A stretch of 41,385 nt of DNA. Origin: Chloroflexota bacterium (GTDB lineage Bacteria > Chloroflexota > Anaerolineae > Anaerolineales > Villigracilaceae). The DNA lies in contig JAJYLQ010000029.1 in assembly GCA_021787595.1 (NCBI GenBank), positions 1-41,385 of the forward strand, written 5' to 3'. The notes beneath the pieces were generated by a model. That model was not told the origin of the DNA and did no database searches. It was given only the letters and a program-made list of their open reading frames with translations. This document shows, piece by piece, positions 240 through 6,020 of the stretch. The position numbers were made by a program, and so were the translations under genes. Numbering within the stretch: the stretch's first letter is position 1; each line of letters starts with the position of its first letter.

Positions 240-836
240 TTATGCGCCATGCGGTTTGACGCGCCGCCACAAGCCCGCGGCATAAATGATCACCGCACCA
301 ACTTCGAGGACGCGTCCAATTAGTATTACAGCGCAAGGTCGAGCAATCGTTCCCTGCCAATTCTCCCTCACCCTTTCCCTCTCCCAAAGGGAGAGGAGAC
401 TCCCTTCCCCATTCGGGGGAAGGGTTGGGGATGAGGGCGAAAACGGTAGAAAAGCCATGAGCAGAACCCTCAAAGCTCTAACTTTGCGCTGTAATATTAG
501 AAAAGCAACTGAAATCCAAAGCTCCAACGCAACAATCCAGATACCCGCGTTCAAAAGCATGAACGAAACCCAAATCAACTTTTCGTTTCCTCGCGAGCGC
601 GGCAAGCCCAATCCAAAACGCGGAAAGATCCAGAAGGCCACACTCATCGCCAACTGGACCAGCCAGCCGACCCGCAAGAACTCCATGTGGATTGGAAGGA
701 GGGTCATGATCGCAGGATCATACGAGATTCTGTCCCGGGCCAGCGCCAGCGCGCCGAGCGTAAAGCCGGCCAGCAGATAAACCATCGAAGCGCGCACAAG
801 CGGAGTGTGCCGTTCCGCAAGCAGTTCATTCAGCAT
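240..836 (-). CDS. Small multi-pass membrane protein carrying an in-frame palindromic insertion
   Basis: The frame encodes 198 residues with about four hydrophobic segments. Residues around 50-75 (PIHMEFLRVGWLVQ, then an FPR end) recall the His-containing helix of small heme-copper-oxidase-subunit-I-like proteins, but this is a weak resemblance and the function is unknown. The start ATG is preceded by GGGAG seven bases upstream. Residues from about 117 to 175 are not native: they are encoded by a palindromic element at 324-496 plus a 4-bp duplication, 177 bp or exactly 59 codons without a stop. Removing them joins VAFL to IGRV and restores a continuous hydrophobic helix, giving a 139-residue protein. 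The gene is divergent from the aldehyde:ferredoxin oxidoreductase gene downstream. Whether the interrupted protein still folds is not known. Confidence 0.6.
   Translation of the reverse strand: MLNELLAERHTPLVRASMVYLLAGFTLGALALARDRISYDPAIMTLLPIHMEFLRVGWLVQLAMSVAFWIFPRFGLGLPRSRGNEKLIWVSFMLLNAGIWIVALELWISVAFLILQRKVRALRVLLMAFLPFSPSSPTLPPNGEGSLLSLWERERVRENWQGTIARPCAVILIGRVLEVGAVIIYAAGLWRRVKPHGA
324..496. mobile_element. MITE-like palindromic element, copy 1 (173 bp, TTAG target duplication)
   Basis: The left end ATTACAGCGCAAGGT and the right end ACTTTGCGCTGTAAT are inverted repeats with one mismatch. TTAG occurs directly outside both ends (320-323 and 497-500), as expected for a 4-bp target duplication. 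The interior holds two nested palindromes rich in CCCTC/GAGGG (about 364-395 and 400-437). The element has no coding capacity for a transposase, so it would need one supplied from elsewhere. A second copy with the same ends but a different core lies at 5889-6001. Confidence 0.75.
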
Positions 837-5842: not shown

Positions 5843-5888
5843 CGTCCCTCCGAATTGATCTTTTGGTTACGACAGTCGCATTGATTAT

Positions 5889-6001
5889 CATTACAGCGCA
5901 AGGTCAGGCTCAAGCCGCCTTCTCGAAGATCCCGCGCAGCGAGACTGGCGGCGTTCAGGCTGCGCCGAGGACGGCGCAGCGAGCAACTTTGCGCTGTAAT
6001 A
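5889..6001. mobile_element. MITE-like palindromic element, copy 2 (113 bp, TTAT target duplication)
   Basis: The ends ATTACAGCGCAAGGT and ACTTTGCGCTGTAAT are identical to those of the copy at 324-496, and TTAT flanks both sides (5885-5888 and 6002-6005). The core is shorter and unrelated to the first copy, being a GC-rich palindrome around GCGCAGCGAG. It lies between the divergent small membrane protein gene and glnS, 20 bp upstream of the glnS -10 box. Confidence 0.75.
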
Positions 6002-6020
6002 TTATAAATCATCGCACCTT

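Follow-up and report, generated by a model that had tools for sequence, protein, structure and literature searches.

An IS701-type MITE inserted in frame into a predicted membrane-protein gene of a Chloroflexota bacterium

Insertion sequences of the IS701 family encode a transposase (NF033540, DDE_5), generate 4-bp target duplications, as given in the accessible part of PMC2266710, and carry YAC at positions 4–6 of their ends. The same part of that source gives the end consensus ---YACT-Y--YR, with the statement that it does not represent the whole family. The available sections of PMC10017437 describe duplications of the form nTAG and an overlap between one end and the transposase ORF, and those of PMC8024623 report duplications of 4–9 bp for Geobacillus IS701 elements, so that duplication length alone is not decisive. 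Bacterial MITEs such as RUP, Correia, ERIC and QMITE1/2 are described, in the portions of the sources available, as moved in trans, mostly intergenic and at times involved in in-frame fusions. Such fusions are known or not unusual according to the accessible parts of PMC10969869, PMC5896051 and PMC2229807, and are especially frequent for Rickettsia palindromic elements (RPE). The literature searched, which covered part of the field, contained no paper on an IS701-type MITE and none on a MITE in Anaerolineae.

The element described here lies in a window of 41,385 nucleotides (the whole stretch of DNA analysed) from a Chloroflexota bacterium and is an IS701-type MITE, a newly found copy family of a known kind of element. 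This type I MITE occupies 324–496 (173 bp, unstranded; delimited by repeat search and end pairing) between TTAG target-site duplications at 320–323 and 497–500 (both unstranded). Its terminal inverted repeats are TATTACAGCGCAAGGT at 324–339 on the plus strand, common to full-length IS701-family elements, and TATTACAGCGCAAAGT at 481–496 on the minus strand; the two ends (TATTACAGCGCAAGGT / ACTTTGCGCTGTAATA) pair over 16 bp with one mismatch, and the element is, like other MITEs, short and free of a transposase gene. The original prediction, which had placed a palindromic element with near-perfect inverted ends and TTAG flanks at 324–496, proved exact to the base, and the claimed gain of 59 codons without a stop also held, since the element plus one TTAG measures 177 bp and the ORF at 240–836 on the minus strand reads through it. 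Folding yielded −87.7 kcal/mol (z −7.9). This hairpin, together with at least 40 near-identical copies and 65 paired copies, rules out a chance repeat, and the interpretation as a mobile element inserted in frame is borne out by repeat copies, duplications and orthologs without the insert. Rfam at gathering thresholds gave no match anywhere in the window, and plasmid records gave none either.

A repeat search of the bacterium's own genome returned at least 40 copies at 97–100% identity among those scored of 169 candidates. Exact 13-base ends occurred at 72 places (control 0) and the 15-base end, allowing one mismatch, at 151 (control 2). From the stretches around the places listed, and from the window, at least 65 distinct two-ended copies were taken, leaving out ten one-ended copies, several of them cut by contig ends. 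Core length was 171 bp in 54 of these 65, with single copies of 170 and 172 bp, four of 111 bp, two of 110 bp and one each of 64, 192 and 352 bp; in the 352-bp copy (L064, 748–1099) another inserted sequence apparently lies near the end. An exact 4-bp duplication flanked 58 of the 65 copies and was missing or inexact in seven. All 58 have TA in the middle (TTAG 17, CTAA 12, TTAA 9, CTAT 6, ATAG 5, ATAA 4, TTAT 3, GTAA 1, CTAG 1), so the family combines many copies with target-site duplications, as MITEs do. The 54 full-length copies differ from their consensus at a mean of only 3.8 of 173 positions, which suggests a recent burst of 173-bp copies. The window copy differs at two, and its 171-bp core recurs at 53 other places in the genome, most with duplications of their own. 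The window also holds a type II MITE of 113 bp at 5889–6001 (unstranded), between two predicted genes, which has the same ends and a different interior and is flanked by TTAT at 5885–5888 and 6002–6005. A search of the window for the end with up to three mismatches (2.16 places expected by chance) found four places, all without mismatch, which are the ends of these two copies.

The interior of the type I MITE contains a GC-rich palindromic core of 79 bp at 363–441 (unstranded; element positions ~40–118), with the arrangement CCCTCACCC..CCCTCTCCC..GGGAGAGG..GGGGATGAGGG, which is a separate repeat widespread in relatives. When the MITE was used as query, 53 of 101 genomes matched, the own genome included; outside it, the matches listed lie on or overlap the core and none of those listed reaches the MITE ends. 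Because the core occurs on its own in related genomes, with sharp boundaries, the type I MITE is, on sequence comparison, a composite carrying a widespread palindromic repeat. Apart from the core, it has at most ~23 bp in common with the sequences compared, at the ends, and so does not derive from a known copy by internal deletion alone. The type II interior has arms of 30–41 bp in common with MITEs of G183, a genome of another genus, where four same-ended MITEs (L195, L197, L198, L199; cores of 159–290 bp) vary in the number of short repeats in their interior. In the same genome a copy of the core (L193, ~208–294) lies in frame within an ORF matching flavin amine oxidase, so the core can be read through in genes.

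The interrupted ORF (240–836, minus strand) encodes a predicted membrane protein of 198 aa that includes the 59 extra codons; Pfam assigned it to no convincing family, the matches to COX1 and TMEM_230 being weak and below the cut-off. Using the 111-aa part upstream of the insert as query against 101 genomes (the own genome and 100 relatives), the gene was found in 24, the own genome included. The alignment comprised 28 rows besides our own, five of which were the same gene twice, leaving 23 genes from 22 related genomes; the cut of 1e-14 placed one genome's L156 (E 2.9e-14) just outside. None of the 23 carries the 59 residues that, on a native origin, all of them should have possessed. The nearest ortholog, from a genome of the same genus (L134), reads FLIGRILE at the site where VAFLIGRVLE had been predicted, which agrees in substance. 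DNA identity to this ortholog is 79–80% on either side of the insertion site, across which 192 window bases stand against 15, a difference of exactly 177; one further length difference in the gene amounts to six bases. The MAG Chloroflexi bacterium WY4.bin62 (L243) has the same sequence as L134 over the 800 bases compared. Two orthologs from different genera, L146 (G005) and L147 (G033), encode proteins that are identical in the alignment, though the surrounding DNA differs within the 800 bases compared.

The element entered the gene where hydrophobic segments 3 and 4 meet, a point at which orthologs vary in length by a few residues. Removal of the insert leaves one long hydrophobic run (residues 86–131): the donor-free protein deduced in the original prediction is supported by the insert-free orthologs, while the 'unbroken helix' ascribed to it corresponds to a hydropathy reading. 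A structure model of the interrupted protein was set aside (mean pLDDT 55.9). An intact aldehyde ferredoxin oxidoreductase gene (922–2835) is divergent from the interrupted gene and was not found in the short stretches fetched for the ortholog loci.

Compatible with the MITE reading, and in our estimate only a little short of an even chance, is the possibility that the interrupted ORF is a dead gene, inactivated by the insert or by an earlier rearrangement, whose frame is open by accident. The N-terminal ~12 residues of the ORF fail to align with the orthologs, and a search with the 111-aa query gave a single match in the own genome, without the adjacent second gene copy; the 23 other matching genomes have at least two matches each, with an adjacent pair in every one among the matches listed. 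From these two features, the host locus has probably been rearranged. The insert also separates hydrophobic segments 3 and 4 by a long peptide that is polar for the most part. Set against inactivation are the conserved parts, which show neither stop nor frameshift and retain 76% protein identity to the nearest ortholog, although decay might not yet be visible, given a copy as young as this one (2/173 from the consensus).

Preservation of the reading frame accords with chance. On either strand, a YTAR target puts TAA or TAG into one reading frame, which leaves a host gene only two frames per strand in which to pass through the site. Among 56 copies, two frames of the element are open in 43 and 49, respectively, and the other four in 0–2; the element is therefore open in two of the four host-compatible combinations of strand and frame, and an insertion into a gene should be open about half the time. 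At 324–496 the frame was kept because 173 + 4 is a multiple of three and each strand offers a host-compatible open frame. Six copies were found to interrupt genes, all at YTAR sites. Three leave the frame open, in identical orientation and frame: the window copy, L081 (RmlD/epimerase) and L087 (23S_rRNA_IVP). The frame is closed in L042 (23S_rRNA_IVP), L067 (TetR, near the C-terminus) and L091, the last counted as a gene on a lipoprotein-like ORF alone, with no Pfam match. L042 and L087 are insertions at about the same position of paralogous 23S_rRNA_IVP-family genes, the former closed and the latter open. Three in frame out of six is what chance alone predicts, albeit on a small sample.

The 58 copies with exact duplications comprise 41 intergenic copies, eight on stop codons and nine called in genes; the nine compare with 26.4 expected from site numbers in the fetched stretches (window excluded) under the same gene model, and insertions inside genes thus appear to be purged, as usual. 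The nine consist of the six interrupting copies, three of which were missed by the codon model and placed by hand, together with L046, L054 and L097, each no more than 8 codons away from a predicted start and left out of the six. Since the codon model missed L081 and L087, both in Pfam-supported genes, more than six copies may interrupt genes. Long ORFs at L053, L059, L071, L084 and L103 were initially taken as genes and then judged, from reading of the ORFs and the codon model, to be probably antisense.

The stop codons of predicted genes are exactly the sites of nine copies in all (L040, L043, L045, L048, L060, L064, L083, L085 and L093), the duplication of L064 being inexact. A stop codon is restored next to the element, as placed for eight copies and deduced for L083, and Pfam domains are present in eight of the nine genes, L083 having none. 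The eight with exact duplications exceed the 2.4 expected, from the same stretches and gene model, over all sites (Poisson 0.003), a baseline that includes gene interiors, where insertions are purged; relative to non-gene sites the expectation is 4.2 (Poisson 0.06), an excess we did not find convincing, and stop-codon targeting was rejected.

An alternative that we regard as improbable is a selfish coding element of the RPE type, whose frame is kept open by selection and which adds a tolerated peptide to protein genes. Consistent with it are the three in-frame copies in recognisable genes, with their common orientation and frame, the presence of one open frame on each strand of the element, and the divisibility by three of both the type I and the type II unit with duplication (177 and 117 bp). 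The closed copies L042, L067 and L091 speak against it, as does the location of most copies outside genes. Among ten MITE lengths from other genomes, only three (81, 159 and 438) are divisible by three when the duplication and two end bases are included, one MITE with Ns and one weak pair having been left out. Of the 38 distinct changes that the 54 full-length copies show in the open frame, 12 are synonymous (31% expected), and purifying selection on the insert peptide was rejected accordingly; counting every copy gives 69 of 185 (29% expected), a mild excess whose cells are not independent. The resemblance to RPE 'in principle' claimed in the original prediction is thus weakly supported: it fits this copy and does not extend to the family, which is mostly extragenic, closed in three of six genes and devoid of a synonymous excess. 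An equally doubtful extension would make the family a counterpart of RPE outside Rickettsia, an IS701-moved palindrome that is unusually tolerated and regularly extends working proteins; if true, the tolerance at gene interiors and stop codons would follow from the two-strand open frame, the multiple-of-three unit and the stop-containing target.

The IS701 assignment of the MITE stems from its ends. Of 152 family genomes, 94 contain matches to the 15-base end, but in many of them the one or two matches do not exceed those of the reversed control (up to 4, one direction). High counts over both strands occurred in the own genome (151), G183 (50), G114 (37), G111 (27), G104 (26) and G003 (24). 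End pairs ~1.6 kb apart in G183 (L193) and ~1.55 kb apart in G167 (L194) delimit complete elements, the former with the duplication CTAA and a 505-aa transposase, the latter with TTAA and a 481-aa transposase. Both proteins match PF13546 and the IS701-family model NF033540 (331 bits, E 7.9e-99 and 265 bits, E 9.4e-79; cut-off 150 bits), while the other loci were matched to the L193 protein only. With that protein as query, 27 of the 152 genomes matched, and the same ends with exact 4-bp duplications (CTAA, TTAT, TTAA, TTAG and CTAG) were recovered in five genomes (L213, which is L193 again; L214; L217, which is L194 again and has one end base different from the MITE ends; L218; L219). Three further IS701 loci have such ends with inexact duplications (L215, L216 and L220). 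The MITE thus has its ends in common with autonomous elements of relatives, which themselves carry an IS701-model transposase (L193, L194) and 4-bp direct repeats (five genomes) and in which the transposase stop codon lies inside the terminal repeat, the end overlapping the ORF. The transposases of L194/L217 and L219 lack about the same near-C-terminal stretch (query residues ~399–422 and 392–427) and may for that reason be inactive; the ends and duplications of these elements are intact.

The shared end YATTACAGCGCAA agrees with the published consensus in YAC (4–6), Y (9) and R (13) and departs from it at T (7) and Y (12). Searches of the own genome with the L193 protein and the profiles gave no IS701 match; no transposase of that family bordered by these ends was found, and DDE_5 matches were limited to two fragments lacking such ends. 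It is for this reason from relatives that we infer full-length IS701-family elements as the likely movers of the MITE. In G004, a genome of the same genus, four contig ends carry the last ~35–40 transposase residues plus the terminal repeat, so a transposase source probably exists in the genus. Both G004 and G003 also have an IS701-like element with other ends, ATTACAACGAGATTTC.

IS5-type transposases can also duplicate YTAR. An IS5-type mover, suggested by the target sequence alone, was dropped as very improbable: the PF01609 profile has no match in the own genome, and the transposases in the elements found to bear these ends are of the IS701 family. That the 59 residues are native and the repeat coincidental can practically be dismissed: the open frame speaks for it, but 23 of 23 orthologs are free of the insert and the 171-bp core lies at 53 other places in the genome.

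We therefore favour, with a probability of about 0.92, an IS701-family MITE that was moved in trans, multiplied with a captured palindrome and landed in a membrane-protein gene. On this model an IS701-type DDE transposase would act in trans, recognising the 16-bp ends (YATTACAGCGCAARGT) and, on inserting the element, duplicating a 4-bp target of the form NTAN, in most cases YTAR. A 173-bp version would have gained the widespread GC-rich palindromic repeat and, alongside shorter and longer versions, given rise to at least 54 copies of its own length, of which the one at 324–496 would have inserted into the coding region of a small membrane protein; the transposase source would later have been lost, or is missing from the assembly. 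The case connects a high-copy MITE with IS701, which nothing in the literature searched had done, and documents a MITE carrying along an unrelated, widespread palindrome. It also illustrates why keeping the host frame does not by itself mark an inserted MITE as a protein-modifying element: the target restricts the host frame, so that about half of insertions are open by chance.

Relative to IS701 insertion sequences, the window element is small (173 bp), lacks a transposase and matches the end consensus in the accessible part of PMC2266710 in part. Bacterial MITEs such as RUP, Correia, ERIC and QMITE1/2, as far as the available portions of their descriptions extend, resemble it in size (100–400 bp), inverted ends, duplication and hairpin. 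Their ends are other than those found here, and so is the mover, where known. The inner palindrome of the MITE core is the motif of the CCCTCTCCCXX(X)GGGAGAGGG repeats of Enterobacter sp. 638, described as CCCTCTCCC..GGGAGAGGG in the accessible part of PMC2869309; those repeats are often at gene 3′ ends, whereas here the motif lies inside a MITE. RPE, in the material available on them, are likewise small palindromes that have an open frame and occur in frame within genes. The present family has the open frame, but in-frame insertion into genes is not its rule: most copies are intergenic, and three of the six insertions into genes preserve the frame, whereas RPE do so nearly always. It further differs in having a clear 4-bp duplication and a candidate transposase family, the duplication of RPE being listed as unknown in the part of the source available.
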